Origin: Argopecten irradians
Lineage: Eukaryota; Mollusca; Bivalvia; Pectinida; Pectinidae
Assembly: GCF_041381155.1 (NCBI RefSeq)
Contig: NC_091134.1
Span: forward strand, 68,242,469-68,306,468
Direction of reading: 5' to 3'
DNA: 64,000 nucleotides
The notes below the pieces were generated by a model. That model was not told the origin of the DNA and ran no database searches. It worked only from the letters and a program-made list of their open reading frames with translations. Shown here one piece after another: positions 2,300 to 54,591 of this stretch. Each line of letters opens with the position of its first letter. Within the stretch, counting starts at the first letter, position 1. A program made the position numbers and the translations under genes.

Positions 2300-3535
2300 A
2301 GACCACCCACCAAAGCTTATTGGTTCCTTGTAGTGTACACCAGCCAGAACCAACCCAGACCACCCAAGCTTATTGGTCCTCTATATACGAGCCAGAACTA
2401 ACCCAGACCACCAAAACTTATTGGTCCCCTATACACAAGCCAGAACCTAACTGAGCCCACCCTTATTGGTTCCTGTACACCCAGAACCTAACCCAGACCA
2501 CCAAAACTTATTGGTCCCCTATACACCAGCCAGACCCTAACCCAGACCACCAAAGCTTATTGGTCCCCATACATCAGCCAGAACCTAACCCAGACCACCA
2601 AAGCATATTTGTCCCCTATACACCAGCCAGAACCTATCTGAGCTCACCAAAACTTATTGGGTCTCTATACACAAGCCAGAACCTAACTGAGCCCACCAAT
2701 GCTTATTGGTTCCCTATACATCAGCCAGAACCTAACCCAGACCACCAAAGCTTATTGGTCCCCTATACACCAGCCAGAACCTAACTGGGCTCACAAAAAC
2801 TTATTGGTCCCCTATACACCAGCCAAAACCTAACCCAGACCACCAAAGCTTATTGGTCCCCTATACACCAGCCAGACCCTAACCCAGACCACCAAAGCTT
2901 ATTGTTCCCCTATACATCAGCCAGAACCTAACCCAGACCACCAAAGCTTATTGGTCCCCTATACACCAGCCAGAACCTAACTGAGCTCAACTAAGCTTAT
3001 TGGTCCCCTATACACCAGCCAGAACCTAACCCAGACCACCAATGCTTATTGGTTCCCTATACACAACTCAGAACCTAACCCAGACCTCCAAAGCTTATCG
3101 ATTCCTTGTACACCAGCTAGAACCAACCCAGACCACCAAAGCTTATTGGTCCTATATATATATACCAGCCAGAATTAACCCAGACCACCAAAACTTATTG
3201 GTCTCCTGTACACAAGCCAGAACCTAACTGAGCCCACCAATGCTTATTGGTTCCCTATACACCAGCCAGAACCAACCCAGACCACCAAAGCTTGTTGGTC
3301 TCATATACACCAGCCAGACCCTAACCCAGACCACCAAAACATGTTGGTCTCATATACACCAGCCATAACCTAACCAAGCTTACCAAAGCTTATTGGTCCC
3401 GCATACACCAGCCAGACCATAACCTAGACTACCAAAGCTTCTTGGTCTCATATACACCAGCCAGACCCTAACCCAGACCACCAAAGCTTATTGGTCTCTT
3501 ATACACCAGTCAGAACCTCACCCAGACCACCAAAC
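2300..3535. repeat. 49-bp minisatellite
   Basis: About 25 imperfect copies of a 49-bp unit built from CCAAAGCTTATTGGTCCCC, TATACACCAGCCAGAACC and TAACCCAGACCA. Two adjacent units starting at 2843 and 2892 give the 49-bp period directly. Variants (GAGCCCACC, GAGCTCACC for GACCACC) are interspersed. The period is not a multiple of three, so small ORFs shift frame and are not genes. Every unit carries ATTGG, the reverse complement of a CCAAT box. Confidence 0.9.
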
Positions 3536-5689: not shown

Positions 5690-6475
5690 CATTACACCGT
5701 AACTCTTGATACCTTGTTACCATGTACACATTGTAACTCTTTATTGAATTTTTACCATTTATACCTTGTATCTCTTTATACCTTGTTACCATGTATAACT
5801 GTAATTCTTTATAACTTGTTACCATGTATACATTGTAACTCTTTATACATTGTTACCATTTATACATTGTAATTCTTTATACCTTGTTACCATTTATACA
5901 TTGTAATTCTTTATACATTGTTACCATGTATACATTGTAACTCTTTATACCTGTTACTATTTATACATTGTAACTCTTTATAACTTGTTACCATGTATAC
6001 ATTGTAACTCTTTATACATTGTTACCATTTATACATTGTAATTCTTTATACCTTGTTACCATTTATACATTGTAATTCTTTATACATTGTTACCATGTAT
6101 ACATTGTAACTCTTTATACCTGTTACTATTTATACATTGTAACTCTTTATAACTTGTTACCATGTATACATTGTAACTCTTTATACCTGTTACCATTTAT
6201 ACGTTGTAACTCTTTATACCTGTTACCATTTATACATTGTAACTCTTTATACATTTTGTTACCATTTATACATTGTAATTCTATATACCTTGTTACCATT
6301 TACACATTGTAACTCTTTATACCTTTTGTTACCATTTATACATTGTAACTCTTTATACCTTTTGTTACCATTTATACATTGTAACTCTTTATACCTTTTG
6401 TTACCATTTATACATTGTAACTCTTTATACCTTTTGTTACCATTTATACATTGTAACTCTTTATACATTGTAACC
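5690..6475. repeat. 34-36-bp minisatellite
   Basis: About 22 copies of a unit made of TTGTTACCATTTATACATTG and TAACTCTTTATACC. Early copies are 33-35 bp. The last five or six are exactly 36 bp and nearly identical, which is why an ORF repeating 12 residues is open on both strands at 6259-6628. Homogenisation toward the right end suggests the most recent expansion was there. The array ends about 50 bp before the candidate promoter of the carrier gene. Confidence 0.9.
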
Positions 6476-6519
6476 AATCTAGATATGTATATTTATTATT
6501 TTTTTTCTGGATTTTCTGT

Positions 6520-11109: not shown

Positions 11110-11292
11110 GGCTAGTGTACAGTACAACACAAGGAACTTGACTCTAGCTGCTAGACTAGACTGGTCAGAATCAAGTAACACCTAACAAAGTGGATACTAG
11201 TTAATAATTGTAGAACTTCAAAACATCGAGAGCACCAGCTGAAGATTCTGTCCTCAATTTGGCCAAGTAAACCTCTGTTTGATGGAGTTTTC
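11110..11292 (+). CDS. Carrier exon 1: 5' UTR plus codons 1-3
   Basis: The exon follows the acceptor TTTGTCTTTTCAG and ends at donor TC|GTAAGT (GT at 11293). The ATG at 11282 begins MEF and leaves two bases (TC), which join the first base of the next exon to give Ser4. Everything before 11282 is untranslated. This start was chosen because it is the only ATG in the exon that joins exon 2 in frame, and it leaves the short N-terminus before the first membrane helix that glutamate carriers have. Confidence 0.7.
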
Positions 11293-14200
11293 GTAAGTAC
11301 ATTTTGTGATCAGAATTATGTGTAAATGTAGATAAAAAGCCCTGATTTAGCAAGTCATCAAAAAAATATATTTTAGCATGAATGAAGAACTACAATTTTT
11401 ATTCAAACAAATAACCTTTACCTTCATTCAAGTTCAAATTGAACACACCCTTCAACTGTTGTTATTAATACATGTATATAATCTCACCTAATTTCTGTCC
11501 TTAGGGTTAGTCATAATTGTACAATAAAACATTGATTGTTTAATTAAAATATCTCTCACATTATCATTATTAATAATTATTAAAGGTCAACATTGGTTGT
11601 AATTATCAGATCAAACATGTTTTTGATAATGCCAAAAGACACCTGATATCAGACCTGTTGAGTGTTGGATCATTAGAAAGCATATGAGCATACCCAAAGT
11701 TTTCCTTTAAATTTAAACTTAAACTCTGAACATGTATACTTGATTGTATCATTGTGTTCATGATTGTAGGTTACTACCGAAAGTAATAAATGGGGGTATA
11801 GCAGGAATTGTGGGGGTGACCTGTGTGTTCCCCATCGACTTGACAAAGACACGCCTACAGAACCAACAGCCAGGACCAAATGGCCAGCTACTATACCGCA
11901 GTCTGTAAGTCTCTGATTTGTATAAAGTCAGTATAAAGCTGACCTAATGACCAGCTACTTGACCACAGTCTGTAAGTCTCTGATTTGTATAAAGTCAGTA
12001 TAAAGCTGACCTAATGACCAGCTACTTGACCACAGTCTGTAAGTCTCTGATTTGTATAAAGTCAGTATAAAGCTGACCTAATGACCATCTACTTGACCAC
12101 AGTCTGTAAGTCTCTGATTGTATAAAGTCAGTATAAAGCTGACCTAATGACCAGCTACTTGACCACAGTCTGTAAGTCTCTGATTTGTATAAAGTCAGTA
12201 TAAAGCTGACCTAATGACCAGCTACTATACCGCAGTCTGTAAGTCTCTGATTTGTATAAAGTCAGTATAAAGCTGACCTAATGACCAGCTACTTGACCAC
12301 AGTCTGTAAGTCTCTGATTGTATAAAGTCAGTATAAAGCTGACCTAATGACCAGCTACTTGACCACAGTCTGTAAGTCTCTGATTTGTATAAAGTCAGTA
12401 TAAAGCTCAACTAATGACCAGCTACTATACCGCAGTCTGTAAGTCTCTGATTTGTATAAAGTCAGTAAAAAGCTGACCTAATGACCAGTTACTTTACCAG
12501 TCTGTAAGTCTCAGATTTGTATAAAGTCAGAATAAAGCTGACCTAATGACTAGCTACTATAACCGCAGTCTGTAAGTCTCTGATTTGTATAAAGTCAGTA
12601 TAAAGCTGACCTAATGACCAGCTACTTGACCACAGTCTGTAAGTCTCTGATTTGTATAAAGTCAGTATTAAAGCTCAACTAATGACCAGCTACTATACCG
12701 CAGTCTGTAAGTCTCTGATTTGTATAAAGTCAGTAAAAAGCTGACCTAATGACCAGCTACTTGACCACAGTCTGTAAGTCTCTGACTTGTATAAAGTCAG
12801 TATTAAAGCTCAACTAATGACCAGCTACTATACCGCAGTCTGTAAGTCTCTGATTTGTATAAAGTCAGTAAAAAGCTGACCTAATGACTAGCTACTATAC
12901 CGCAGTCTGTAAGTCTCTGATTTGTATAAAGTCAGTATAAAGCTGACCTAATGACCAGCTACTTGACCACAGTCTGTAAGTCTCTGATTTGTATAAAGTC
13001 AGTATTAAAGCTCAACTAATGACCAGCTACTATACCGCAGTCTGTAAGTCTCTGATTTGTATAAAGTCAGTATAAAGCTGACCTAATGACCAGCTACTTG
13101 ACCACAGTCTGTAAGTCTCTGATTTGTATAAAGTCAGTATTAAATCTCAACTAATGACCAGCTACTATACCGCAGTCTGTAAGTCTCTGATTTGTATATA
13201 AAGTCAGTATAAAGCTGCTGACCTAATGACCAACTACTTGACCACAGTCTGTAAGTCTCTGATTTGTATAAAGTCAGTATTAAAGCTCAACTAATGACCA
13301 GCTACTATACCGCAGTCTGTAAGTCTCTGATTTGTATAAAGTCAGTATAAAGCTGACCTAATGACCAGCTACTATACCGCAGTCTGTAAGTCTCTGATTT
13401 GTATATAAAGTCAGTATAAAGCTGACCTAATGACCAGCTACTTGACCACAGTCTGTAAGTCTCTGATTTGTATAAAGTCAGTATTAAAGCTCAACTAATG
13501 ACCAGCTACTTGACCACAGTCTGTAAGTCCCGATTTGTATAAAGTCAGTATAAAGCTGACCTAATGACCAGCTACTTGACCACAGTCTGTAAGTCTCTGA
13601 CTTGTATAAAGTCAGTATAAAGCTGAACTAATGACCAGCTACTATACCACAGTCTGTAAGTCTCTGATTTGTATAAAGTCAGTAAAAAGCTGACCTAATG
13701 ACCAGTTACTTTACCAGTCTGTAAGTCTCAGATTTGTATAAAGTCAGATAAAGCTGACCTAATGACCAGTTACTATACCGCAGTCTGTAAGTCTATTATA
13801 AAGTCAGAATAAAGCTGACCTAATGATTTTACTATACCCAGTCTGTAAGTCAGTATTAAAGTCTAACTAATGACCAGCTACTTGACCACAGTCTGTAAGT
13901 CTCTGATTTGTATAAAGTCAGAATAAAGCTGACCTAATGACCAGCTACTTGACCACAGTCTGTAAGTCTCTGATTTGTATAAAGTCAGAATAAAGCTGAC
14001 CTAATGACCAGCTACTATACCACAGTCTGTAAGTCTCTGATTTGTATAAAGTCAGAATAAAGCTGACCTAATGACCAGCTACTATACCACAGTCTGTAAG
14101 TCTCTGATTTGTATAAAGTCAGTATAAAAGCTGACCTAATGACCAGCTACTATACCGCAGTCTGTAAGTCTCTGATTTGTATAAAGTCAGTAAAAAGCTG

Positions 14201-17200
14201 ACCTAATGACCAGTTACTTTACCAGTCTGTAAGTCTCTGATTTGTATAAAGTCAGAATAAAGCTGACCTATAATGACCAGCTACTATACCACAGTCTGTA
14301 AGTCTCAGATTTGTATAAAGTCAGAATAAAGCTGACCTAATGACCAGCTACTTGACCACAGTCTGTAAGTCTCTGATTTGTATAAAGTCAGTATAAAGCT
14401 GACCTAATGACCAGCTACTATACCGCAGTCTGTAAGTCTCTGATTTGTATAAAGTCAGTATAAAGCTGACCTAATGACCAGTTACTTTACCAGTCTGTAG
14501 GTCGCTGATTTGTATAAAGTCAGTATAAAGCTGACCTAATGACCAGTTACTTTACCAGTCTGTAGGTCTCTGATTTGTATAAAGTCAGAATAAAGCTGAC
14601 CTAATGACTAGCTACTATACCGCAGTCTGTAAGTCTCTGATTTGTATAAAGTCATTGTTAAAGCTGACCTAATGACCAGTTTGTAAGTCTCTGATCTGTA
14701 AAGTCAGTATCAAAGTTGACCTATCATAATGGTCAGCTGATAAAGCCAACTAATCTATATATATATCATTGCATGAGGAATTATCGATGCATCCGAAGGT
14801 CAGGATGACCTATTGTCATCGTGTTTCTTCCGTCGTCGTGCGCCGTGCGCTGTCCGCCGTGCGTATAACTATTTATACAAAAGCCTACTCCTCCTAAACC
14901 CTTGAGTGAATTACATCCATATTTGGTGTGAAACATCCTTGGGGAAGGACAATCATATTTTATATAAATGAGATAAGTCCGACCCCTAGGGGCAGAGGGG
15001 CGGGGCCCCAAAAGGGCAAATTTTCTTAATTTAAGCTTTTAAATCCTACTCCTCCTTCATCCTTGGATGGATTTCATCCATATTTAGTGTGAAACATCAT
15101 TGGGGAAGGACAATCATATTTTATATAAATGAGCTTGGTCCGACTCCTAGGGGCTGAGGGGTGGGGCCCCAAAAGGGCAAATTTTCTTAATTTTAGCTTT
15201 AAAATCCTACTCCTCTTTCATCCTTGGATGGATTTCATCCATATTTAGTGTGAAACATCATTGGGGAAGGACAATCATATTTTATATAAATGAGCCTGGT
15301 CCGACTCCTAGGGGCTGAGGGATGGGGCCCCAAAAGGGCAAATTTTCTTAATTTTAGCTTTAAAATCCTACTCCTCTTTCATCCTTGGATGGATTTCATC
15401 CATATTTAGTGTGAAACATCATTTGGGATGGGCAATCATATATTATATAAATGAGCCTGGTCCGACCCCTAGGGGCTGAGGGGTGGGGCCCCAAAAGTGC
15501 AAATTTTCTTAATTTTAGCTTTAAAATCCTACTCCTCCTTCATCCTTGGATGGATTTCATCCATATTTGGTGTGAAACATCATTATGGATGGACAATCAT
15601 ATATATATAAATGAGCCTGGTCCGACCCCTAGGGGCTGAGGGGTAGGGCCTTAAAAGGGCAAATTTTCTTAATTTTAGCTTTAAAATCCTACTCCTCCTT
15701 CATCCTTGGATGAATTTCATCCATATTTGGTGTGAAACATCATTGGGAAAGGACAATCATATCTTATACAAATGAGTCTGGTTTGACCCCTAGGGGCTGA
15801 GGGGTGGGGCCCCAAAAGGGCAAATTTTCTTAATTTTAGCTGGCCCAATTCCTGTTTTCAGGTTTCGGTCTCCGATCTCAATGATTTTATAGGGGTTTAA
15901 TTGATGCCGAACAACATACAACATTTTCGTAAAGATTTTTGGTATTCCAAGATGGCCGCTGGCCCACTTCCTGTTTTAAGGTTTCAACCTCCGATCTCAA
16001 TGAAAATTGGTCTATAGGGGTTTTAATTGATGCCGAACAACATGAAAACATTTTCATAAAGATTTTGGTATTCCAAGATGGCCACTGGCCCACTTCCTGT
16101 TTTCAGGTTTCAGTCTCCGATCTCAATGAAAATTGGTCTATAGGGGTTTTAATTGATTCAGAAGGGGGAACTTTAGGTGAGGACAATCATATTTTATAAA
16201 GGACCGAGCTAAGACCCATGGGGATAGTACGGCGGAGGTCCAAAATGGGAGCTTTGCTGAAATTTGGCTTTAAAATCTGACGACTCCTCATATTAATCCT
16301 TGAATTGGTTACAACCATATATGGATGAAGGGCTACCAAGTTTGTTCAACAAATGATATTTACCTATTTCAGAAACTTACATATTCAACTAAGGAGTTCC
16401 TTGTATTGTTTATATTAATTGTTAACCAATTTGCTTTATACTGTGACTTTGTTGTTTTGTGCCATGAGTCAGATGACCGTTAAGGCCCATGGGCCTCTTG
16501 TATTAATTAAGTACTCCTTATCTTATTAATAGCTTACCATATTTTATCAAACAAATTGCAATAATTTTATCTTAAAATTATCATTTGCCAATTTTACATG
16601 CATTGTTCATAATTATAATATAATATGATATTGCTTTGTTTCAGATGGGACTGCTTTTCGAAAACCTACAGAAATGAAGGTTTCTTTGGGATGTACAGAG
16701 GTAGGTTGTGGTCTCTATAGCTGTTTTTAAATCAGTTTTTCCGACAGTGAAGATCCTCAATATTAATGTGTCATCAAAGCCAATATTTGTCATGCATGTC
16801 AGAGTTAGGAAATGTTTCCAATCACTACGACCACATGTTATGAGTTTGTGTATCATGTAATTGATTTAACTATACTATATCAATCCTGTAGTGTTAACCT
16901 TTTGTCCTACAGGGTCTGGTGTTAACTTAGTCCTATATATTTTGTCCTACAGTGTCTGGTGTTAAGTTGTTCTTATATTTTGTCCTACAGGGTCTGGTGT
17001 TAACTTAGTTCTGATTACTCCAGAGAAGGCCATCAAACTGGTCGGAAATGACTTCCTTCGGCATCACCTTAAAGACAGCAGGTATAACTCAGGAGGAATA
17101 GAAACCCTATATAGTGTCGGTACCTTGGATCTGTGTATTGTATATTAAGTGATCTTTATCACATACAATGTATATAATTATGTAATCTGTATATTATAGA

Positions 17201-20200
17201 CTTGCAGTATACATTGTATTTAAGACCTTTGTTACAAAGAAATGTATTTTACAGGGTCATAGGTCAACATCAAGCATTTTATTTAGTGAGCAGTTACACA
17301 AAAGTACATAGATTTATTAGCCCACCATCAACAGTTGGTGGGCTATTCAAATCGCTTTTTGTCCGTGGTCCGTCGTCCGTCCTTCCGTCCGTTAACAATT
17401 CTTGTTACCGCTATTTCTCAGAATGTACTAAAGGGATGTTTCTCAAAATTCATATGTAGGTTCCCCTAGGGCCCTAGTTGTGCATATTGTATTTTGAGAC
17501 CAATCGGTCAACAAAATGGCCGCCAGGCAGCCATCTTGGATTTTGATAGTTAAAGTTTGTTACCGCTATTTTTCAGAATGTACTGAAGGGATCTTTCTCA
17601 AATTTCACATGTAAGTTCCCCTAGAGGCCTAGTTGTGCATATTGCATTTTGGGACCAATCTGTTAACAAGATGGCCGACAGGCAGCCATCTTGGATTTTG
17701 ACAATTGAAGTTTGTTACCGCTATTTCTCAGAAAGTACTGAAGGGATCTGTCTCAAATTGCATGTGCAGGTTCCCCTAGGGTCCTAGTTGTGCATATTGC
17801 ATTTTGGGACCGATCGATGAACAAGATGGCGGACAGGCCGCCATCTTGAATTTTGACAATTGAACATTGTTACAGCTATTTCTCAGAAAGTACTGAAGGG
17901 ATCTGTCTCAAATTGCATGTGCAGGTTCCCCTAGGGGTCTAGTTGTGCATATTGCATTTTGGGACCGATTGATTGAACAAGATGGCCGACAGGCCGCCAT
18001 CTTGGATTTTGATAGTTAAAGCTTGTTACCACTATTTCTCAGAAAGTACTCAAGGGATCTGTATCAAATTGCATGTGCAGGTTCCCCTAGGGGTCTAGTT
18101 GTGCATATTGCATTTTCAGACCCATCGGTGAACAAGATGGCCGACAGGATGCCATCTTGGAGTTTGATAATTGAAGCTTGTTACCACTATTTCTTAGAAA
18201 GTACTGAAGGGATCTGTCTGAAATTTCATGTGCAGGTTCCCCTAGGTCTCTGGTTATGCATATTGCATTTTGGTACCGATCAGTGAACAAGATGGCCGAC
18301 AGAACGCCATCTTGGATTTTGACAATTGAAGTTTTTTTCCGCTATGTCTAAGAATGTACTGAAGGGATCTGTCTCAAATTGTATGTGCAGATTCTTCTAG
18401 GGGTCCAGTTGTGCTTATTGCATTTTAGGACGGATCGGTGAACAAGATGGCCGACAGGTAGCCATCAAGGATTTTGATAATTAAAGTTTGTTACCGTTAT
18501 ATATCTCAGAAAGCAGTCAAAGGATCTTTCTGAAATTCCATGTGTAGTAATATGTAGTAAAAGCTTGAAAAGCAGAGAAAAGATCCCTCTTGCCTTTGTC
18601 AGACAAAGATCGTTCTTAGGTGGGCGCCAAGATCCCTCTGGGTTCTCTTGTATTATGTATAATCTGGTGGGTTTTTTTTGCGAATTACATGCACCGCAGA
18701 CATCCTTTAGGATAATATAATATCAGGATAGTCTGTATCTATGATGAAAATTTAAAGTCACATTTCAGAGTATTTGTGGTAAGATGTAGAGTTACAAATT
18801 TAGATGAACTGTCCCAGGTCCATATGATCATCAAGGGGTTTCATTATCTTTCAGAAGAGGTGGTACGATTGCAATTTCAGAGGGTACTTTTCTCTACAAT
18901 CTGTATGCTATCTGATGTAGTTTGGCCCAAATCAGGTGGTATGTGCCACAGCCAGGTTTAACCAGGTTTTAAAAAGTACCTGGTACCACCTGATATTGAA
19001 ACTCCTGGATCATTGCTATGTCTGGATTCTGCATGATGATCTGTCTATTGACTGTTTACATTAAGTAGCATTATTCAGTAGAAATCGCCTACTATCAATC
19101 AATACAAAATCTAGAGAGCTATAGCCAATGAAGTCTGTTGGTCTTCCTTTGAGAATTTACACCACTTTCATCAACAATCAATACTTCATTCATTTTATAC
19201 TGTAATCTGTTCTTTACACACTATCTTCAGATGAATATTTCAGCCAGACATCAGAACTAGGAGTTTACAATCTCACCAAATAATATACATATATACTGAA
19301 GCTATCTAACTGTATTTGTATTGATTCATTTTGTGTACTTGTTGCTTCAGGAGACTGTATATCTCTGATACCATGTTGTTTTTTTTGTGTTTTTTTTCCA
19401 AAAAAAAATTTTTTTATTCAATAGACATATAAATAACATTATGTTCCTTTCACAGAAGGACTTGCACACAAATTTCCATATTCAAATAGATTATTCTAAT
19501 CTTGAACACAAACTTTTACCGCTTTCACATTATTTACAGATATATTCATCATTTATTCATAATTACCTCTCAATCATTCATATCCATTCAAAATAAATTG
19601 TTATTTGTAATTTCAAATAATTAATTTACATTGTGCATATAATATGGCAGGTAAGGGGAGACAACTCTAATATAAAAATTACAAATATGATATAAATGCT
19701 TTCTTACTTCTAATAAATTCAGTTGTTACATATTATGTAATGTTATTTGTTAATATGTACTTTCTTCTTTTTTTTACATTTTTAAATTTAACTTCTAATC
19801 AATCCATAATATTAGTTTTAAGGATTATGATGAACACAAAAAAGTATTAAAATTGATATCAACAACAAGGGGAGCTAAATCTCACATATACTTGAGTGAT
19901 AAAAGAGTAATTATTAATACATGTAGTTTTTTTTAGCACACCATCAACAGATGGTGTGCTATTCAAATCGCTTTTTGTCCGTGGTCCGTCGTCCGTCCTT
20001 CCGTCCGTCCGTCCGTCCGTCCGTCCGTCCGTCCGTCCGTCCTTCCGTCCGTTAACAATTCTTGTTACCGCTATTTTTCAGAAAGTACTGAAGGGATGTT
20101 TCTCAAATTTCATATGCAGGTTCCCCTAGGGCTCTAGTTGTGCATATTGTATTTTGGGACCAATCGGTCAACAAAATGGCCGCCAGGCAGCCATCTTGGA

Positions 20201-23200
20201 TTTTGATAGTTAAAGTTTGTTACCGCTATTTCTCAGAATGTACTGAAGGGATCTTTCTCAAATTTCACATGTAAGTTCCCCTAGGGGCCTAGTTGTGCAT
20301 ATTGCATTTTGGGACCAATCGGTTAACAAGATGGCCGACAGGCAGCCATCTTGGATTTTGACAATTGAAGTTTGTTACCGCTATTTCTCAGAAAGTACTG
20401 AAGGGATCTGTCTCAAATTGCATGTGCAGGTTCCCCTAGGGGCCTAGTTGTGCATATTGCATTTTGGGACCGATCGATGAACAAGATGGCCGACAGGCCG
20501 CCATCTTGGATTTTGACAATTGAACTTTGTTACAGCTATTTCTCAGAAAGTACTGAAGGGATCTGTCTCAAATTGCATGTGCAGATATCCCTAGGGGTCT
20601 AGTTGTGCATATTGCATTTTGGGACCGATTGATTAACAAGATGGCCGACAGGCCGCCATCTTGGATTTTGATAGTTAAAGCTTGTTACCACTATTTGTCA
20701 GAAAGTACTGAAGGGATCTGTATCAAATTGCATGTGCAGGTTCCCCTAGGGGTCTAGTTGTGCATATTGCATTTTCAGACCCATCGATGAACAAGATGGC
20801 CGACTATCAATTCCTTTTTCCCATTTTGTTTGATTTTTATGTATGATGACAGATTATCTTTAAGTAATTCTTTTAAAATTTGAAATGCTGATGTAGGAGA
20901 AGTTAATTTGTTTTGGTATTTTTTTATATTCCTGATCTTCCATATAACCCATTTAGTTGTAATTATGACTGTGTTAGATATTGCATTATTCAATAAATTA
21001 TCAGTGCAGTCACAGAGCATCATTTTCTCCTCATCCATATTCCATGTCATATTTACAGTGTCAAAACTTTCATTATTGTAAAGATTAGCATGTATTATGT
21101 CTAACAATTGTGTTGTGAATAAACAGTTAAAAAACAAATGGGTTAAAGTCTCATTTTCAGTTCTACACATATGACATAGTCCATCGGATCTATTCATTAG
21201 ACTTAGTTTGTGATACCATGTTAATGTATCATAATATGAATTAAAGCAAAACATGGTTATTACATCGAGTCCTAGCTCTGTTATCAAGGCATTTTCTGAT
21301 GGCTTCATTAATTGATTTTCCTTCTTAATGTAACAAATGGCCAAAACCAGTGAGAAAATCCCCTGGTAACATAGCATATCTTTGTTAACAACAAGGCCAA
21401 CCAAAATGACAAGTCCTTTTCTACATGGTCTCTGTCCTTGTCCGTGTTAACAATAGCATGGGTACTTTACACCTATCATGGTTTACTGAACATCAGAATA
21501 CTAAATGATATAATACCATTTCAGAACGGGTAAGCTGTCACTGCCACGAGAGATTGTGTGTGGGGCTGGAGCTGGGTTGTTTCAGATCATTGTAACCACA
21601 CCCATGGAACTTATAAAAATACAACTTCAGGATGCTGGTCGAAGTGGTATGTACGTCTTAGATCTCAAGTCAACATGGACATTGACACACTGGAAATCTA
21701 CAGTAAACTTATTAAAGCTTCAAATGTTCATGTTTAGCTTATTCACATATTCCCAGACAACATCCCACTCCCTCAGATCCTGATTATATCTGCAGAGAAT
21801 TCCTGTCAATTGATATCCACACCTCACAAATCATAGGACAGGTGATTTGTCATCCTCGATACTCCAGGGGTTCCGATTACTTACGATCTCTACACCCCTG
21901 GACTATCTCATAGTGAAACTGGAGGCAACAGAACAGAACAGGTAATTTAGTCATACGATGTACATCAAAAGAGCCGTATAACGGTACACTGTGGTTGACT
22001 GTGTGGCTTTGATGTTAGGCGTCGCTCTCTCTGTAGTCTTCAAAGGAAATCTTTGCTAGCCTGTGATTGGTCAAATGTTTTCCGCTGAGCTGCCTTCAAT
22101 TTCACTATGAGATAGTCCAGGGGTGTAGAGATCGTAAGTGAATGGAACCCCTGGAATATCATAGGACAGGTGATTTGTCTTCCATCTGAGATTAGTGTAT
22201 TTCAATATTTATTGTAATTTTGGTTTTCTAAAGCAGCTAAGCAATGTCTTCCAGTTTCTTTTTGCACAAACAAGTTACATGTATCGATACTGAATGCTAA
22301 TACTCTCTGAATTCTGATTCTCTATCACATTCTACAGCATTTGGTGGGTCATCTGATCAGCTCTGATTCTCTATCACATTCTACAGCTCGTGTCAATGTA
22401 GCTGCCAACGGAACCGGAACTGCCACCAAGTTAACTGCCATGAAGATCATCTCAACACTGCTCAAGGAAAAAGGCCTAACTGGCCTGTATCAGGGATGTG
22501 CAGCCACAATGCTGAGAGATGTTACATTTTCAGCTTTGTACTTCCCATTCTTTGCACACCTTAATGCTATGGTGAGAAAGCAGAAAATAAAGATTTCCTT
22601 CTTAAGTTAATGATTAAATATTTAAAGGATTTTTTTCAAAATAAAAAAAACAACTCATGTCAGGGACCTAAAAAAGTGTCTAAAAAGCTATCAAAACATT
22701 GATTGTATAATATTGTTTTATGTGGAGATACTCATGTTTGTAATTCTACTGATGGCAAAGCTGAGACAGTAGAATGACTTCAAATTAAAAAAAAAAAACA
22801 TTGATTTTATAGTTTAAAGATGTTTTGATTGAAGATAAAATATTGCTTTACTCAAATGATCTCTACAGTATTATCCTTTGTAGAGAACTTAATTATGGGA
22901 GACCTGCTTTAACAGTCAGTCTCTTGTAGAAAATTCACTTACAATGTATATCAATAAAACTGAGCACCTGCATTGTCATGTTGATATAATTGGAATAAAT
23001 TTTATTGTTTCAGGGCAAACGAAGAGAGAACAGTAATGAGGCTGTATTCTACCATACCCTTATTTCTGGAATCATTGCTGGGGGCACGGCATCAGTCTTT
23101 GTTAACCCAATGGATGGTAAGATACATAGAAACAAAAAGCACTCATTTAAGTCAAGACAAAAGTTTTATTTATTAATATAATTCAATTAAAAACAAATTG

Positions 23201-26200
23201 ATTTAAGTCCGTTTTTCACTGAAGTTTTTTTTTTTGAGAAATCAGGGCCAGTTTTTATGTGGGATATACTTTTGGTAATGTCAGGACTGTTTATGACATA
23301 CAAATCTGTGTTACCTATATCAACAAGGTCTACATTGAATTTTATAGGACCCATTACAATATTGAACTTCTTTAACACGCATGCAATTTAAATTTCACAA
23401 AATAAATAAGAAAATTATTTTATCTAATAATTCAATGTACTAGAAATTTGCTAAAATAGCATAAAATTTTCAGTCATGTAAGTGTACTAATTAAGATTAT
23501 GCATAACACAATGGACATTTCCAGTTGTGAAAACGAGACTACAGACAATTGAGAAGGGAGCTGGAGAGAGGAGCTACTCTGGAATTGTAGATTGTTTTAG
23601 GTAATTGATATATGTGTTATACCAATCACTAAAGTTAACAGATAATGAGATTCACACTTACTGGAAACCTATTGATTTTTACGAGATGCAAATTATCACA
23701 TAATTTAGTAAGGAAGCTTGATCGTGAATTAATTGTTTAAAACATATATAGAAGTACATAATTTTCAGTAAGATTCCTTGATTGCGAATATATGTTTTTG
23801 CTAGTAACATGTTAAAAAAGCTGAATAAATGGCAAACATGTTGAGTACAATGAAAACATGATGAATTGTTTATATATGCAAAGTGGTTTATATTATCTCC
23901 CTTCTGTTTATTCTCGAGCTTTTTTAGGTCACCTGAGACGAAGTCTCTCTATTCTAATCGCCTTTTGTCCGTCGTCGTCCGTCGTCCGTCGTATGTCCGT
24001 AAACAATTTACATTTTCGACCTCTTCTCCAAAACTGCTGAAGCAATTTCAATGAAATTTTGCACAAACCTTCTAAGGCATAAGGCCAATCAAAATTGTGA
24101 ATTATATGGTCCCCACCCCACAGGGGGCTGTGGGAGGGGCCAAAAGGGGTAAAATTGAGTAAAATTTCAAAAATCTTCTTCTCTACTCACAGATGTGGTA
24201 GAATCAAATACTCTTCATAAATAGAAAGGTCTTAAGGTCCTTTACAAAAATTGTGAATTATATGACCCTGGGGTCTCTAGTTTCCCCCTGGGGAGGGGGT
24301 TAAGTTTACTATACTTTATATTGAGAAAAACACATTTTTGCGCATTATTTGGTCATTTGTAATAGGAAATGAGTCAAATGTTGTGAGAATTATCAGTATG
24401 AGATGGCCATTTAATCCTATTAACAAATTTTCTATAACTGACCCCCAGGGGCCTTAGGGGCGGGGTCAAAAGGGGTCAAATAGGCTTAAACTTCAAAAAT
24501 CTTCTTCTGAAATTCTGGATATGGTAGAATCAAATACTTTTCATAAATAGAAAGGTCTTAAGGTCCTTTACAAAAATTGTGAATTATATGGGTCTCACGT
24601 TTCCCCCTGGGGAGGGGGTCAAGTTTACTATAGTTTATATAGGGAAAACACATTTATGAGCATTTTTTGCTCAATTTTCATTGGAAACGAGTCAAACTTG
24701 GTTAGAATTATTAGCCTGAGATAGCATTTTAATATCATATCCACATTGGTTCTGGCCGACCCCCTGGGAACAGAGGGGTGGGGCTAAAAAAGGGTCAAAT
24801 AGGCTAAAACTTCAAAAATCTTCTTCTGAAATTCTGGAAATGGTAGAAACAAATACTTTTCATAAATAGAAAGGTCTTAAGGTCCTTTACAAAAATTGTG
24901 AATTATATGACCCTGAGGTCTCACGTTTCCCCCTGGGGAGGGGGTCAAGTTTACTATAGTTTACATTTATGAGCATTTTTTGCTCAATTTTCATTGGAAA
25001 CGAGTCAAACTTGGTTAGAATTATTAGCCTGAGATAGCATTTTAATATCATATCCATATTGGTCCAGGCCGACTCCCCTGGGGGCAAAGGGGCGGGGCCA
25101 AAAAAGGTCAAATAGGCTAAAACTTCAAAAATATTCTTTTAAAATTCTGGAAATGGTATAATCAAATACACTTTATAGATATGAAAAGGTCTTAAAGTTT
25201 GTATATAAAAATTGTAAATTATATGACCCTGGGGTCTCCTGTTTTCCCTTGGGGAGGGGGTCAAGTTTACTATAGTTTATATAGGAAAAACACATTAATG
25301 AGCATTTTTTGCTCAATTTTTATAGGAAATGAGTCAAACTTGGTTAGAATTATTAGCCTGAGATAGCATTTTAATATCATATCCAGATTGGTCCTGGCCG
25401 ACCCCCTGGGGGCAGGGGGGGGGGGACTAAAAAGGGTCAAATAGGCTAAAACTTCAAAAAATTTTCTAAAATTCTGGATATAGTAGAATCAAATAATTAT
25501 AGATGGAAAGGTCTTCAGGTGTTTTATAAAAACTGTGAATTATATGATCTTGGGGTATCACGTTACCCCCTGGGGAGGGGTCAAGTTTACTTTAGTTTAT
25601 ATAGGAAAAACATATTTGTGAACATTATTTGCACAATTTTCGTAGAAAATTAGTCAAACTTGATTAGAATTATTAGCCTAAGATATAGCATTTTAACATC
25701 CATATCCATCCTCGATGACCCCTGGGGGACCAGAGGGGCAGGACCAAACAGGGTCAAATTGATTAAAATTTTAAAAAATACCTCTAAGTTCACAGGTTTG
25801 ATGGAAGCAAATACTCTTCATAGTCTAAAAAGGTCAAATTTATAAATCACTGACCAACTTCAAGGCCCAGCATATAGTGTTTATATGTCTTTAATTTGTT
25901 TCATTATTTGTTTCATTATGTATTCTAACTCAGGTGACCGTTAAGGCCCATGGGCCTCTTGTTTTTTTTGTTTTTTTTTCTAGATGTGATTACAGATGTA
26001 TTTACTGAATGACATTGATAATCAATAATCAAGAGAGGTAAAAAATGAATACAAATAGTTAGATGTGCAGAGAAAATGTAGTGAATGCAAATTTCTGCTT
26101 CTCTTTCAGGAAAGTCTACAAGTATGAAGGTTTTAAAGCCTTCTACAAAGGTGGCCTATGTCGGATTCTAGTCATCGCTCCACTGTTTGGTATCGCACAG

Positions 26201-26257
26201 ACTGTTTATTATTTTGGTGTAGGAGAATTTCTTGTCTCTATGACTGCCAGAGAATAA
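11282..26257 (+). CDS. SLC25A22: Mitochondrial glutamate carrier, spliced, 308 aa
   Basis: Coding exons 11282-11292, 11770-11904, 16645-16700, 16991-17081, 21525-21646, 22387-22571, 23014-23116, 23525-23600 and 26110-26257 total 927 nt and join in one frame with GT-AG introns. The product is a six-helix inner-membrane carrier expected to import glutamate with H+ into the mitochondrial matrix. The three repeat signatures are visible: PIDLTK (residues 25-30), PMELIK (124-129) and PMDVVK (232-237, split by intron 7). Family-typical blocks include [45 protein letters not shown] and APLFGIAQ. The length is close to vertebrate SLC25A22/SLC25A18 (about 315-323). I cannot tell which vertebrate paralogue is closer; an invertebrate gene may be co-orthologous to both. 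Introns 2, 4, 5 and 8 carry transposable elements, and three introns show duplicated splice sites. A polyadenylation signal was not identified with confidence. Confidence 0.93.
11770..11904 (+). CDS. SLC25A22: Carrier exon 2 (residues 4-49)
   Basis: Acceptor ATGATTGTAG, donor CAGTCT|GTAAGT. It encodes the first membrane helix and signature PIDLTK (residues 25-30), followed by TRLQNQQ. The last 26 bases (11879-11904), coding NGQLLYRS, are the seed of the 67-bp array that follows. In the exon's frame the donor reads CTG TAA, so any read-through meets a stop at once. Confidence 0.92.
11879..14720 (+). repeat. 67-bp minisatellite of a splice donor junction
   Basis: About 43 copies by hand count of a 67-bp unit that begins as the end of exon 2 (AATGGCCAGCTACTATACCG, CAGTCT) and runs through the donor GTAAGTCTC and ~41 bp of intron. 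The first unit is the real junction; spacing is 67 bp (11899, 11966, 12033). Nearly every copy keeps CAGTCTGTAAGT, so intron 2 opens with dozens of strong decoy donors. Two main subtypes occur, TACTATACCGCAG (exon-like) and TACTTGACCACAG. Single-base indels and variants (GTAGGT near 14500) accumulate toward the right end. Confidence 0.95.
14797..16500 (+). mobile_element. Rolling-circle-like element, family C, in intron 2
   Basis: The 5' hairpin is AGGTCA, GGA, TGACCT (14797-14811), followed by a GTCGTC/GCGCCGTGCG tract. The core has about six ~160-bp units ('cctactcctcctt...ggggaaggacaatcat...gggccccaaaaggg') from about 14880 to 15840. About three ~122-bp units follow, containing CCAAGATGGCCGC and CACTTCCTGTTTT. 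The 3' end is the palindrome AGGCCCATGGGCCT (16483-16496) plus CTTG, then T. No ORF of transposase type is present. The termini resemble Helentron/HINE elements. Confidence 0.75.
16645..16700 (+). CDS. SLC25A22: Carrier exon 3 (residues 49-68)
   Basis: A 56-nt exon between acceptor TTTGTTTCAG and donor AGAG|GTAGGT. It encodes [19 protein letters not shown], the matrix loop after helix 1, with the 'EGFFGMYRG' block common to carriers. Confidence 0.92.
16900..16990 (+). repeat. Tandem triplication of the intron 3 acceptor
   Basis: TTTTGTCCTACAG followed by G(G/T)GTCTGGTGTTAA occurs three times, with acceptor AGs ending at 16912, 16952 and 16990 (spacing 40 and 38 bp). The copied segment spans polypyrimidine tract, AG and the first ~20 bases of exon 4. 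Only the third copy opens into exon 4. Splicing at the first or second leads to an in-frame stop (TAA and TAG respectively). Confidence 0.93.
16991..17081 (+). CDS. SLC25A22: Carrier exon 4 (residues 68-98)
   Basis: A 91-nt exon from the third acceptor copy to donor GCAG|GTATAA. It encodes [19 protein letters not shown] and [12 protein letters not shown], the second helix with the family-typical ITPEKAIKL. Confidence 0.92.
17319..18650 (+). mobile_element. Rolling-circle-like element, family B copy 1, in intron 4
   Basis: The 5' hairpin has stem AGCCCACCA/TGGTGGGCT (17319-17344), followed by CTATTCAAATCGC and a GTCCGTC tract. The core has about seven ~156-bp units starting TTGTTACCGCTATTTCTCAG, each with the inverted pair CAAGATGGC...GCCATCTTG. 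Near the 3' end GGTGGGC (inverse of the 5' GCCCACC) precedes a hairpin AGATCCC, TCT, GGGTTCT (18630-18646), then CTTG and T. ORFs inside are unit-derived and not genes. Confidence 0.82.
18652..19934. other. Intron 4 sequence between elements
   Basis: AT-rich with a long T run near 19378-19412. No exon can be joined to the carrier frame. 'AGGGGAGACAACTC' -like and 'AGGGGAGCTAAATCTC' -like text at 19650 and 19870 hints at further old repeats, which I cannot delimit. Confidence 0.4.
19935..20804 (+). mobile_element. Family B copy 2, 3'-truncated, in intron 4
   Basis: The 5' hairpin is AGCACACCATC / GATGGTGTGCT (19935-19960), with both members of one base pair changed relative to copies 1 and 3. 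A longer (GTCC) tract follows, then about five to six 156-bp units very similar to copy 1. The element stops abruptly at AAGATGGCCGAC (about 20804), where sequence of a LINE fragment begins. The subterminal repeat, 3' hairpin and CTTG end are missing. Confidence 0.8.
20805..21404 (-). pseudogene. LINE reverse transcriptase C-terminal fragment
   Basis: The minus-strand frame encodes about 200 residues with [18 protein letters not shown], matching the zf-RVT zinc-binding segment (CxxC...HLFxxC) found after the reverse transcriptase domain of many non-LTR retrotransposons. [16 protein letters not shown] follows, also typical of those C-termini. The polymerase and endonuclease domains are absent, so it is a dead fragment. 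Its last ~8 residues read into the truncated family B element, so the two were joined by insertion or deletion. It lies antisense in carrier intron 4. Confidence 0.65.
21525..21646 (+). CDS. SLC25A22: Carrier exon 5 (residues 98-139)
   Basis: A 122-nt exon between acceptor ATACCATTTCAG and donor AGTG|GTATGT. It encodes [20 protein letters not shown], the second carrier signature PMELIK (residues 124-129) and QLQDAGRS. It is shorter than in vertebrate proteins at the following loop, which fits the smaller total length. Confidence 0.92.
21863..22155. mobile_element. ~293-bp inverted-repeat element (MITE) in intron 5
   Basis: The left arm, starting TCCAGGGGTTCC (21863), pairs with the right arm ending GGAACCCCTGGA (22155). 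The match continues inward for about 65 bp through TTACGATCTCTACACCCC and CTATCTCATAGTGAAA with few mismatches. The ~160-bp middle has no ORF. Outside it, a 22-bp direct repeat (ATCATAGGACAGGTG, ATTTGTC) occurs at 21830-21851 and 22158-22179. Confidence 0.75.
22313..22386 (+). repeat. Duplicated intron 5 acceptor
   Basis: A perfect 25-bp direct repeat (TCTGATTCTCTATCACATT, CTACAG) at 22313-22337 and 22362-22386 gives two identical polypyrimidine-AG acceptors 49 bp apart. Only the second joins exon 6 in frame. Use of the first adds 49 nt with an in-frame TGA after nine codons. Confidence 0.93.
22387..22571 (+). CDS. SLC25A22: Carrier exon 6 (residues 139-200)
   Basis: A 185-nt exon ending in phase 0 at donor CTATG|GTGAGA. 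It encodes [18 protein letters not shown], then the matrix loop and fourth helix with [19 protein letters not shown] and [15 protein letters not shown], typical of this carrier subfamily. Confidence 0.92.
23014..23116 (+). CDS. SLC25A22: Carrier exon 7 (residues 201-235)
   Basis: A 103-nt exon between acceptor TTATTGTTTCAG and donor GGATG|GTAAGA. It encodes [19 protein letters not shown], helix 5 ([13 protein letters not shown]) and the first half of the third signature, PMD. Confidence 0.92.
23525..23600 (+). CDS. SLC25A22: Carrier exon 8 (residues 235-260)
   Basis: A 76-nt exon between acceptor GGACATTTCCAG and donor TTTTAG|GTAATT. It completes the third signature (PMD|VVK, residues 232-237) and encodes [23 protein letters not shown] in two runs, the third matrix loop. 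Confidence 0.92.
23926..25961 (+). mobile_element. Rolling-circle-like element, family A, in intron 8
   Basis: It begins AGGTCACCTGAG (23926-23937), overlapping a GAGAC/GTCTC hairpin, then CTATTCTAATCGCC and a GTCCGTC tract nearly identical in layout to family B. The core has about five ~310-bp units ('aaaggtcttaaggtcctttac...ttccccctggggaggggg...ggggtcaaatagg'). At the 3' end CTCAGGTGACC (25929-25939), the inverse of the start, precedes the palindrome AGGCCCATGGGCCT (25944-25957), then CTTG and T. No coding capacity is seen. Confidence 0.82.
26110..26257 (+). CDS. SLC25A22: Carrier exon 9 (residues 260-308 and stop)
   Basis: It follows acceptor TTCTCTTTCAG and ends in TAA at 26255-26257. 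It encodes [20 protein letters not shown] and the sixth helix [20 protein letters not shown], ending MTARE. The APLFGIAQ block is highly characteristic of the glutamate carrier. Confidence 0.93.
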
Positions 26258-29200
26258 ACTTTGTATGTTCCTGTGCCCTCTATGACCAAAGTCCTCTGGC
26301 AGTCAAAGAAAAGCCAGAATCCCTGGCTACAGACGTTCTTAGAATTAGTCTACTTCTTTGTTTAAATGAATTAGGTTTCATAAAAAAGAGCTGGTTTGCT
26401 TGTTTCTGTACCCTAGTCATATTCAGGAGCATCTTACAGGTGATTGTAGAAAGCTGTTTGATTACAGTCATCTGAAGTTTATAAATGTAAGTATTATTTT
26501 AGTTCAGTGCTATTGATAGTGCTATTTAACCTTAAAATTGTGATTTATTTGCAGTTTATTTAGTTTTAAAATAGTGCTAAATGATGTTTTTTTTGTTTTT
26601 TGTTTTTTTTTTGTTTGTTAAAAAAGCAGTATTGTGCTTTAAGTATTTTTTCCCTTTTTTCTTCCAAGGTTTTAAGAAAGAAAAGTATTCATACTCATGC
26701 TTGATTAGATACATGTATCTAGTGTGGTCGAAGAAGTTTAAGTGAAACATCAGACAGAGGTTTCTTCATAAATAGAACATATCATCATGTAAAGTTAATG
26801 ATTCAAGACACTTATACAGTTTAGTGTTCATAGGTGATTTCCAGTTTTGTATTTGTGACAAATTTATTACCCATTTTTAAATTGATATTTACATGTAACT
26901 TTAACCCATACATAACCTTGATTTTACACAAGAAATTTAGTCATTTAGTAAAGATATTACAGAAATTGTATGCAAGTATACTATGGAGATTGTATGCAGG
27001 CAGCATTTGATGACTGAGTTACCCTGCCGAGTTTTATTTTATCAGTCGAGGCATTATGATTAGTACCTACCACCTACATTTAAAATGTGAACAACTAGTC
27101 TTCTGATTCTGCAAAATGCTGTATCAGACATTTTAAGTTAAATCAATCATCTCCATCTTATTATTTGAAAAACTTATAAAGGAATATAATCATTCCTCTT
27201 TACTAATAATAAGGAAATGATCTGCCCTTTAACACATCACTGAAGTCACTTTAGGGATGTATTTATAACAGTATCATTTATATTTTAGACTAAATTTTCA
27301 ATGTAATGTAATCAATCCCCTTTATCAATATCATTTTCAGATAAGTAAATTCCCTTTTAAGAATATAATTTTTTAGTGATGTAGTTTACACTCTTTATTA
27401 AAATATCATTTTCGGTAATGTAATTATGTCCCATTTAACACTGCATACCCAAAAAGACAGTTATAAACCATGCCATATATTATCTGTACAAATATTACTA
27501 ATTAAACGATCATAATGCTGCAAATGCAATGAAATACTCTTCTATTTACCGATTTTACTGACCATAAGATAGACTTAAATTTTTGAAGTAACATAAATTG
27601 TTTCTTTCCGAAGATCTCTTGTATAACAATGAAAAAATAAAGGTTAAAATTTATAGTCCTTGACTTGAAAGTATTCACTATACTAAATGAATGATATATT
27701 TTTATCAATAGTTTTAAAAACCATTCAACTTAAATTTCAGTTTTTAGACAGTAAAATTTGAATCTCTAAAGTGGACCTCATATTATAATCACTAAAATTC
27801 TAAACCTTCATTTAGATGGTGCTGGCTTATAACAAATATACATATTTAAGTGGTGATGGCTTATTAAGTTTTGATATTTTATATAATAATCAAATGTTTG
27901 CCAAATTGCTGTGATGTATGCTTCATTGTGATACAAATATTGTAATTCCTTCAAAACATGCCAAACTGAAAAATCACCTTATAATGTCAAAATATGTTGT
28001 GTATATTTATAATTAGAATTGATTATTTTTGTAGATAATTGCTTAATATTATGTGTTCATTATTTTAATTCAAAGTCAGATATCAGGGATTATCAATTAT
28101 TTTATTATTGATTAAACTTTTTCTTAATTGATTTGTTTTAAACCCAGATATAGAAAGAAGTGAAATAAGTAGGTTTTATGTTTAAAAACTGAATTATTTT
28201 AATATTTGAAGAAAGGAAGATTAAACATGTGTCAACATAAGGTCATTCATTAGGTTGTTCCATCTTGTATGATTGTGTTCTTACTTCTCTTGTTGTTACT
28301 GAAGCTGATTCACCAGATAACCTGTCTTGGTATGTTGTATAGTTACCTCCCTTGTACACAGGGATTTATTATGCATGCAGTCATTATTTTATGAGCAACA
28401 TCGATTTTCTCTGAATAGTATGATGTCAGGCTCACAAACACATGATGTCACAATCAATACCTACCTGCAAGGGCAGATTACTCTGTTAGGTGCTTACACA
28501 TAATATCAACATTGTGAATATCATTGGGAAATAACACTTTGTAACTGCCGACCTTTTGGATAGGGTGTTAGGGTAATCACATTCCTGATGACAGACAAAA
28601 ATCACCGCTCAAACTTCCTTATGTTAATGGTTCCATTTGAATGAAAGTTTATGAAACAAACAAAAATCATAACTGGCTGGTAAATACGTTTAACTTGAAA
28701 TCTTAAAAAAAAAACAAAAAAAAAAAAAACAGAAATAAGCTAGCAAATCATCACAAAAAAATTATTTTCCTTAGGTTGTGTATTTATATAAGGACAATTT
28801 AGAAACAAGGAAACAATTTAGATTTAAAGAATAAATTAATAACAAAAAAGTGTAGGCTGAATTAATCAAGACATACAAATAAAAACTACGGGAAACTAAA
28901 AACATGTTTGACTTAAAAATTAGGGAGCAATGTCTTTTTGGCATTTTTTTCAACATTAGTTATAATGGTAAGAATATTTTTTTTCCGATTTTTTTTGTAT
29001 TTTTCAATTTGATAAAAACTTCAACAAAAAATGTTGATATTTTCAATATAAAAGTGTTGATACTTTACATACACATGTGTTAATGCACATTAGTAACAGA
29101 ATCTCGGGACATGATTTCCCATAACTGTTAGCCTCATAATATCTATACATGGACTCTACCTACATCAAATAACCAGACACTTGATGTGTGATATTATGAC

Positions 29201-31639: not shown

Positions 31640-32545
31640 TACATGTTAGGTTGAAATCTAATAAACAGGATTCATCCAATCACAGACGTGTTCTGTTTTA
31701 TTGAAGTCTGATAAACAGGATTCATCCAATAACAGACGTGTTCTGTTTTATTGGAGTCTGATAAACAGGATTCATCCAATCACAGACGTGTTCTGTTTTA
31801 TTGAAGCCTGATAAACAGGATTCATCCAATCACAGACGTGTTCTGTTTTATTGAAGTCTAATAAACAGGATTCATCCAATCACAGACGTGTTCTGTTTTA
31901 TTGAAGTCTGATAAACAGGATTCATCCAATCACAGACGTGTTCTGTTTTATTGAAGTCTGATAAACAGGATTCATCCAATCACAGACGTGTTCTGTTTTA
32001 TTGAAGTCTGATAAACAGGATTCATCCAATCACAGACGTGTTCTGTTTTTATTGAAGTCTAATAAACAGGATTCATCCAATCACAGACGTGTTCTGTTTT
32101 ATTGAAGTCTAATAAACAGGATTCATCCAATCACAGACGTGTTCTGTTTTATTGAAGTCTAATAAACAGGATTCATCCAATCACAGACGTGTTCTGTTTT
32201 ATTGAAATCTGATAAACAGGATTCATCCAATCACAGACGTGTTCTGTTTTATTGAAGTCTGATAAACAGGATTCATCCAATCACAGACGTGTTCTGTTTT
32301 ATTGAAGTCTGATAAACAGGATTCATCCAATCACAGACGTGTTCTGTTTTATTGAAGTCTGATAAACAGGATTCATCCAATCACAGACGTGTTCTGTTTT
32401 ATTGAAGTCTAATAAACAGGATTCATCCAATCACAGACGTGTTCTGTTTTGTAGAAGTCTAATAAACATAATTCGTTCAAGCAGAGACGCGTTCGTTTAT
32501 GTTGAATACTGATAAACAGGATTCATCCAATCACAGAAGTTTCTG
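31640..32545. repeat. 50-bp minisatellite upstream of the C1q gene
   Basis: Eighteen copies by hand count of a 50-bp unit made of TTGAAGTCTGATAAACAGG, ATTCATCCAATCACAGACG and TGTTCTGTTTTA. All but one carry CCAAT (usually CCAATCACAG). The central copies are almost identical; the last two, near 32455-32545, are decayed. The array ends about 400 bp before the C1q start codon. Confidence 0.93.
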
Positions 32546-32945
32546 TTCACACACTTTTATCAATTATCTTTCTTAATCAATTATCAAATAAAAAAAGACT
32601 GACCATATTATACCGATGTCATACACTGATTTAAAAGTATACCATGAATAAACGTCTACCGTACGGTATAGGGATGTTTGTTCTTGAGGAAAAGGAAACG
32701 AATGAATTTTCCAACCCCTTTTGCAAATTTGATTTGACCTTTGGTCACAACTTTTGCTTTTAGAGACCCTGTAACGCAGGTCGAGTCATCTGTTCGCCTT
32801 TAACTATCAGTTTACATTCCTTCGTGTTTTGTTCCATGTACTTGGATACATGGGTCATGAGCTGATAAGATGACCATCTAGTGGGCGATTTGCTTATCTC
32901 TGCCTACTAAACTTTTCAGGGCCATTGTAGTGATTGAACGGTACA

Positions 32946-42980: not shown

Positions 42981-43134
42981 AAGGATTGATTATCAATTTT
43001 GTTGCTTGCATTGACTGATGAAGAAAGTTAATCTCGTGCAAATGTTACATGAACTGCTTCGCAGTTCACTTCATTTGCACGAGATTAACTTTCTTCATCA
43101 GTCAATGCAAGCAACAAAATTGACAATCAATCCT
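42981..43134. repeat. Long hairpin with 64-bp arms at the array border
   Basis: Arms 42981-43044 and 43071-43134 are reverse complements with one mismatch. The 26-base centre contains a second hairpin, GAACTGC, TTC, GCAGTTC. It ends two bases before the right 42-bp block begins. Confidence 0.9.
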
Positions 43135-43135
43135 T

Positions 43136-48376: not shown

Positions 48377-48385
48377 AAAACAATC

Positions 48386-52852: not shown

Positions 52853-52924
52853 TAAACAAATATAATTATGATTATTTACAGACTATAGATTTAGGTGGTC
52901 AAGAAGCTTTGCTTAAAATAGACC

Positions 52925-54490: not shown

Positions 54491-54591
54491 CTTGCCCGAT
54501 TAGTCATGTCATACTCATGGGTGTGTCATAGATATCGTACGACACATGTGTGTAACGACACTATTGTGATATTACGGCTAAAAATGACATC

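Follow-up and report, generated by a model that had tools for sequence, protein, structure and literature searches.

A stretch of 64,000 nucleotides (nt) of the scallop Argopecten irradians was analysed, hereafter called the window (assembly GCF_041381155.1, contig NC_091134.1, positions 68,242,469 to 68,306,468 of the forward strand, read 5' to 3'). It contains a gene for a mitochondrial glutamate carrier, in which the splice donor junction of intron 2 is repeated as a minisatellite of 67-bp units. The features of the gene, in window coordinates, are as follows.

11282..26258, + strand: predicted mitochondrial glutamate carrier (SLC25A22/SLC25A18-like) gene, 9 coding exons separated by GT-AG introns
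11282-11292, 11770-11904 and 16645-16700, + strand: coding exons 1 to 3, from the spliced frame
16991-17081, 21525-21646 and 22387-22571, + strand: coding exons 4 to 6, from the spliced frame
23014-23116, 23525-23600 and 26110-26258, + strand: coding exons 7 to 9, from the spliced frame
11770..11904, + strand: exon 2, 135 nt; the repeat unit derives from its last 31 nt (11874-11904)
11905..11910, + strand: GTAAGT, the predicted true donor of intron 2, whose use would restore the frame and the conserved protein shared with Pecten maximus
11874..14723, + strand: minisatellite of 67-bp splice-donor units, numbering 43 with that of the exon itself, from Tandem Repeats Finder (TRF) and 43 GTA[AG]GT sites

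Most of the later exons were located by conserved motifs, and the remainder by reading the sequence. Spliced together, the nine exons give an intact frame of 308 amino acids (aa) without internal stop, with three PF00153 (Mito_carr) stretches (E 1.8e-67). Among the best 120 of 2847 proteins compared, the top match was the P. maximus mitochondrial glutamate carrier 1-like protein, with 291 of 303 residues identical (96%), and this identity extends across the exon 2/intron 2 junction. By its Mito_carr repeats and its similarity, the gene is a mitochondrial glutamate carrier gene (SLC25A22/A18), its transport activity being predicted from sequence.

The repeat unit consists of 31 exon nt and 36 intron nt of the exon 2/intron 2 junction. 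A first-pass annotation of this DNA had described it as the real donor junction of the carrier, repeated about 43 times. Both points are borne out, the first by the intact frame and the P. maximus match across the junction, the second by a scan for GTA[AG]GT, which found 43 sites between 11905 and 14683, namely the exon 2 donor followed by 42 copies. The 26 exonic bases that it counted per unit have to be corrected to 31. The decoy donors span 11972 to 14683 and comprise 40 GTAAGT and 2 GTAGGT. Of the spacings between donors, 38 out of 42 are 65–69 bp, the others being 72, 58, 50 and 54 bp; no double-length spacing occurs, so that no unit lacks a donor. A chance origin of such a series is excluded. 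TRF reports the array in two rows (11874-13826, 67 bp x 29.1; 13847-14679, 67 bp x 12.4), as well as in a single row with a period of 134 bp (11874-14679), and a degenerate tail reaches 14723. Head-to-tail units within the range of roughly 10–100 bp (TRF) make it a minisatellite. Its unit comprises the exon end, the donor and the intron start of the host gene, which places it with the exon-intron-junction repeat of the human CBS gene.

The exon was the source of the repeat, since its coding end is conserved in relatives and its AAATGGCC is absent from all copies, 38 out of 42 of which show TAATGACC instead. In an alignment of 13 proteins chosen from the best 120, PGPNGQ is present in six, and G42 and Y46 are invariant. 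The 43 units can be sorted into subtypes (17 B, 14 A, 5 C, 4 a and 3 unassigned), and these alternate in the central part of the array, which, together with the 134-bp period, indicates that amplification probably proceeded in part by multiples of the unit. A whole-genome DNA search listed 18 matches, a lower bound, all within window positions 11700-14723, and no second allele. Rfam gave no family at the gathering threshold over the whole window, and the predicted RNA folding of two stretches was unremarkable (z −1.45 for 134 nt, −0.06 for 98 nt).

Splicing from any decoy would lead to a stop at codon 50 of 308 (42/42), as the CTG TAA reading of the first-pass annotation had it. Its description of the decoys as strong holds for the six intronic bases, which match the consensus, and fails for the exonic TCT, which is poor: the true donor has a rough score of 1.27, and 39 of the 42 copies have the same score. 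True and decoy donors are thus practically alike locally, and position must distinguish them. Across units, the donor 9-mer is 99.2% conserved, versus 91.2% for the remainder of the unit, in an alignment anchored on GTA[AG]GT, a motif that by the spacing every unit carries. However, 7 of the 59 9-mer windows reach the value of the donor (its own and shifted ones included), and one of them, TAAAGTCAG, has no known splice role. Since windows without a known splice role are as conserved as the donor, selection on the decoys is not demonstrated.

Two acceptors of the carrier gene are present in extra copies as well.

16900..17012, + strand: exon 4 acceptor junction in about 2.9 tandem copies, from TRF, a 30-mer search and the sequence
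22314..22386, + strand: exon 6 acceptor signal in two copies (22314-22337 and 22363-22386), read by eye

At exon 4, the acceptor AGs end at 16912, 16952 and 16990, the last being the true one, and use of either decoy would give an early stop (codons 85 and 86). The exon 6 copies are 49 bp apart and reach into the exon by 1 nt only; this duplication was seen by eye and was not reported by the automatic duplication searches. The upstream copy, if used, would lead to a stop at codon 148.

Other genes of the 845.8-Mb genome were then surveyed, starting from 345 profile matches to four gene families (PF00153 83, PF00118 59, PF00063 82, PF00209 121), which fall on contigs C1–C16 and two small contigs, C451 and C1399. 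Of these, the 155 lying in or close to the retrieved DNA entered the survey (42, 40, 46 and 27, respectively). Sixty loci excised by the profile searches and 60 retrieved by position were merged into 101 tiles (234.5 kb), the window gene being excluded, and junctions were called by homology, from profile ends and a weighted splice consensus. This gave 119 junctions, 70 acceptors and 49 donors. A junction counted as spanned when 10 nt or more on either side of it were covered by a tandem duplication with a minimum length of 24 bp and a minimum identity of 80%. Seven of 119 junctions were spanned before checking. One of them, in a myosin gene (L091), was dropped because the called acceptor falls inside coding sequence, leaving 6 of 118: two myosin acceptors (L083, L069), three SLC6 acceptors (L121, L114, L122) and one CCT donor (L049). 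Requiring longer flanks lowers the initial count to 6/119 (15 nt) and 4/119 (20 nt). The junctions are partly non-independent, as they include SLC6 paralogs and a contig, C451, that resembles a second copy of part of C4. The first-pass annotation had treated the carrier array as a single locus, but junction-spanning arrays recur, in the carrier gene and in others.

Three of the acceptor arrays are long. Once additional flanking DNA had been included, and counting the true site with at most two substitutions allowed, L121 has at least 22 copies, L083 at least 25 and L114 12; the first two arrays run beyond the ends of the retrieved DNA, so that their counts are lower bounds. The exon frame stays open for 128 codons upstream of the true acceptor in the 87-bp SLC6 array (L121 and L129, C1), and for 237 codons in the 60-bp myosin array (L083 and L131, C5), whereas in the L114 array, also of an SLC6 gene and with 60-bp units, a stop follows immediately. 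Leaky use of upstream acceptors would add peptide repeats of 29 residues in the former SLC6 gene and of 20 residues in the myosin gene.

The CCT donor junction on G000:C10 (L049, 1640-1878) is a minisatellite of 53-bp units (x 4.5), each made of the exon end and GTAAGT, with degenerate copies (78% matches). On G000:C2, a myosin locus (L072) has 34-bp units arrayed on the donor side, with several additional GTAAGT motifs just inside the intron; this array extends less than 10 nt into the exon and was counted only in the junction edge bin described below. Two more duplications, of an acceptor (L054, x2) and of a donor (L079, x2), look real and lie outside the positives among the 119 junctions. 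At the rejected myosin locus (G000:C1:42670554-42671724), a coding stretch is tandemly duplicated about 118 bp apart with 98% identity; this spacing is not a multiple of 3, and the duplication may stem from faulty assembly or offer a candidate case of intron creation. CCT exons score equally on the small contig G000:C451 and at G000:C4:11.54-11.57 Mb, where they occur twice within C4, perhaps because of a haplotig plus a local gene duplication. An early self-match screen covered 30 carrier loci and detected no duplication that overlaps the coding domain matched there, most of these matches being whole domains whose ends are not junctions.

Rates were compared with control points under the same criterion. 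Spanned points made up 1215/11510 of the non-coding (10.6%) and 33/2843 of the coding-interior controls (1.2%), with junctions in between, the pattern that tolerance of junction copies would predict. An intronic array covers points with each of its copies, so that births, counted as array edges, have to be compared instead. Exon-proximal array edges were found at 6/118 junctions in the bin 10–60 nt inside the exon and at 4/118 in the bin −10 to +40, compared to 7/673 in intron bins 40–340 nt (Fisher P 0.007 against the exon bin). With intron bins 40–190 only, chosen because short tiles hide fewer arrays there, the exon bin remained in excess (6/118 versus 4/354, P 0.019), as did the exon and junction bins together (10/236 versus 4/354, P 0.024). 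Array edges are thus about 4–5 times denser at junctions than in introns (P 0.007–0.024), in tests that are exploratory, with small numbers, picked after inspection of the data and covering four gene families. A birth-normalised density gave 1.6 expected versus 7/119 observed (P 0.0014), a rough estimate that still includes the false call L091 and takes its control DNA mostly from tiles of other gene families.

The reading that we consider probable is that of a self-buffering, junction-spanning duplication, which expanded under weak selection while the exon-proximal site stayed in use. A tandem duplication across the boundary of exon 2 and intron 2 would have arisen in this scallop lineage and been amplified into the 67-bp minisatellite, presumably by unequal exchange or slippage and in a nearly neutral way. 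As the two ends of such a duplication lie on opposite sides of the exon-intron boundary, a donor array would keep its first copy intact and an acceptor array its last. Exon edge, splice site and adjoining intron would all be preserved in that copy, and normal mRNA could still be made, so that selection would act only via mis-splicing, and weakly. The spliceosome would mostly pick the exon-proximal donor by exon definition, exon 2 being 135 nt long. Occasional use of a decoy would extend the exon by multiples of about 67 nt and bring in the stop at codon 50, and the product would presumably be cleared by nonsense-mediated decay. The same process would operate at other junctions of the genome, and self-buffering would explain why duplications are almost absent from coding interiors and yet present at junctions. 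The carrier gene itself stays intact and 96% identical to that of P. maximus despite 42 decoys. Because junction arrays recur in the carrier and in other genes, a genome-wide process of birth and tolerance is favoured over a control device specific to the carrier.

Several points weigh against this reading. Tolerance alone does not predict the higher density of array edges at junctions than in introns, which may reflect a birth bias linked to junctions (speculatively, through breakage or R-loops at exon edges) or selection against arrays that disturb intronic signals nearby. The donor region ranks with the best-conserved parts of the unit, as a functional reading would also predict. Use of the donor at 11905 in vivo is one that we infer from the frame and from protein conservation. 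Finally, the check by eye in the survey covered the seven positives only, and not the 112 negatives.

Among the alternatives, a length-dependent dimmer survives best, although we hold it to be unlikely. Each decoy would add a small chance of the codon 50 stop, a longer array would yield less functional carrier mRNA, and length polymorphism would tune expression. In favour of this, the 42 decoys have the donor core of the true site in common with it, and the stop is identical for all of them. Array length may have an effect, with which the Rfam and folding results, like the conservation pattern, are compatible. A variable number tandem repeat (VNTR) in human CBS is reportedly linked to reduced enzyme activity, going by the title of a paper. 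That VNTR lies across a donor junction (PMC2630376), and the length of a VNTR in ABCA7 correlates with exon skipping and lower expression (PMC6660495), in the available portions of these articles. However, the similar arrays of unrelated genes, two of which keep the frame open instead of introducing a stop, do not suggest one regulatory design, and the decoys bear no clear sign of selection.

Protection of pre-mRNA by U1 is known in general. Unspliced decoys could form a positional platform that binds U1 small nuclear ribonucleoprotein (snRNP) and guards the 4.7-kb intron 2 from premature cleavage and polyadenylation, or aids exon definition. The dozens of intact GTAAGT on the sense strand of the intron would suit this role, but acceptor arrays of a like kind in other genes have no U1 logic and conservation within the unit is not donor-specific, which makes it very improbable. 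Misassembly of the array, or of most of its length, is highly improbable as well: long tandem arrays are error-prone, and the exact copy number is uncertain, but the units differ from one another at many positions, the array sits at 68.24 Mb within a 75.5-Mb contig, and other loci have similar arrays built from different units. Hardly credible is recursive or nested splicing, in which the units would be stepwise splice points removing the intron piecemeal. An AG does precede each unit's donor by three bases, with branch-like CTGAC/CTAAT motifs upstream, but none of the 252 AG sites of the array reaches the 10th percentile (3.57) of the 70 called acceptors, the best scoring 3.43, in a test weakened by the score-selected reference set and by four of the eight true acceptors of the carrier gene also lying below 3.57. 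That a single gene should titrate U1 across the genome is unlikely, the abundance of U1 making it implausible by numbers.

Repeats at splice junctions have precedents, compared here as described in the available portions of the articles. The 31-bp VNTR of human CBS, c.1444_1467+7(16_21), comprises, as the name indicates, 24 exon nt plus 7 intron nt in 16–21 repeats (PMC2630376). As in the carrier, its unit is a real exon end with its donor in an intact gene, and its units have nearly constant length with single-base differences. It differs in gene and animal, in its shorter unit and fewer copies, in its known length polymorphism and in lacking the roughly 36 nt of intron found in carrier copies. 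In human duplicated genes, internal tandem repeats at exon-intron boundaries can give alternative splicing via novel introns (PMC2812944). They are likewise minisatellites able to change splicing, with units averaging 30 bp repeated about 4 times and support from paralog comparison and RNA, whereas the carrier array has 43 units of 67 bp and is described from DNA. In potato, a tandem duplication across an intron-exon boundary gave rise to a novel intron; fission yeasts have repeats of a 24-bp exonic segment that carry introns and across which splicing takes place (PMC4974935). Splice signals are doubled there by a boundary-crossing duplication, as in the carrier, but the outcome is a new intron, while the carrier array lengthens an existing one with no new boundary evident. 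The VNTR in intron 18 of ABCA7 is a long, length-variable minisatellite whose length correlates with altered splicing (PMC6660495); it is described as intronic, the available passages being silent on an exon junction in its unit, whereas the carrier unit contains one. In abalone, intron 3 of a TSSK1-like gene has a minisatellite with a 27-bp unit and variable repeat number (PMC6905558), which resembles the carrier array in lying within a molluscan intron and, in the available text, is not described as junction-spanning. Tandem-repeat content has been compared among scallop genomes (PMC10225492), the passages available there making no mention of junctions. In the literature searched, at the level of titles and abstract openings, no splice-junction minisatellite of a mollusc was reported, which is no proof of absence. 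Since CBS and other junction repeats are already known, only the size of the array, the occurrence at both donors and acceptors and the frequency within one genome are new here.

Elsewhere in the window, TRF detected further minisatellites at 2336-3534, 5699-6476, 31651-32547, 39594-45601 and 52025-54492, one of them about 6 kb long with 42-bp units. The window also holds an open reading frame (ORF) with a C1q domain at 34694-35140 (PF00386, E 9.3e-17) and an ORF of 651 aa without Pfam match at 48356-50308.

Dozens of near-identical sites next to one exon constitute a natural experiment on how the spliceosome chooses by position alone. They are also a warning for annotation, as repeat masking may hide exon edges. 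Recurrence within one genome would make tandem duplication at junctions, a long-proposed path to new introns, measurable in its birth rate, spread, length polymorphism and expression cost. More tentatively, and as a possibility that we would not yet call probable, splice junctions may be preferred birthplaces of minisatellites in this scallop genome, several percent of them carrying tandem self-copies. They would then form a reservoir of intact duplicate sites that act, depending on unit length, as stop-containing (poison) arrays, like the 67-bp array of the carrier, or as in-frame cassettes, like the 87-bp SLC6 and 60-bp myosin arrays. If so, peptide repeats, new introns or length-dependent expression could evolve from junction arrays.

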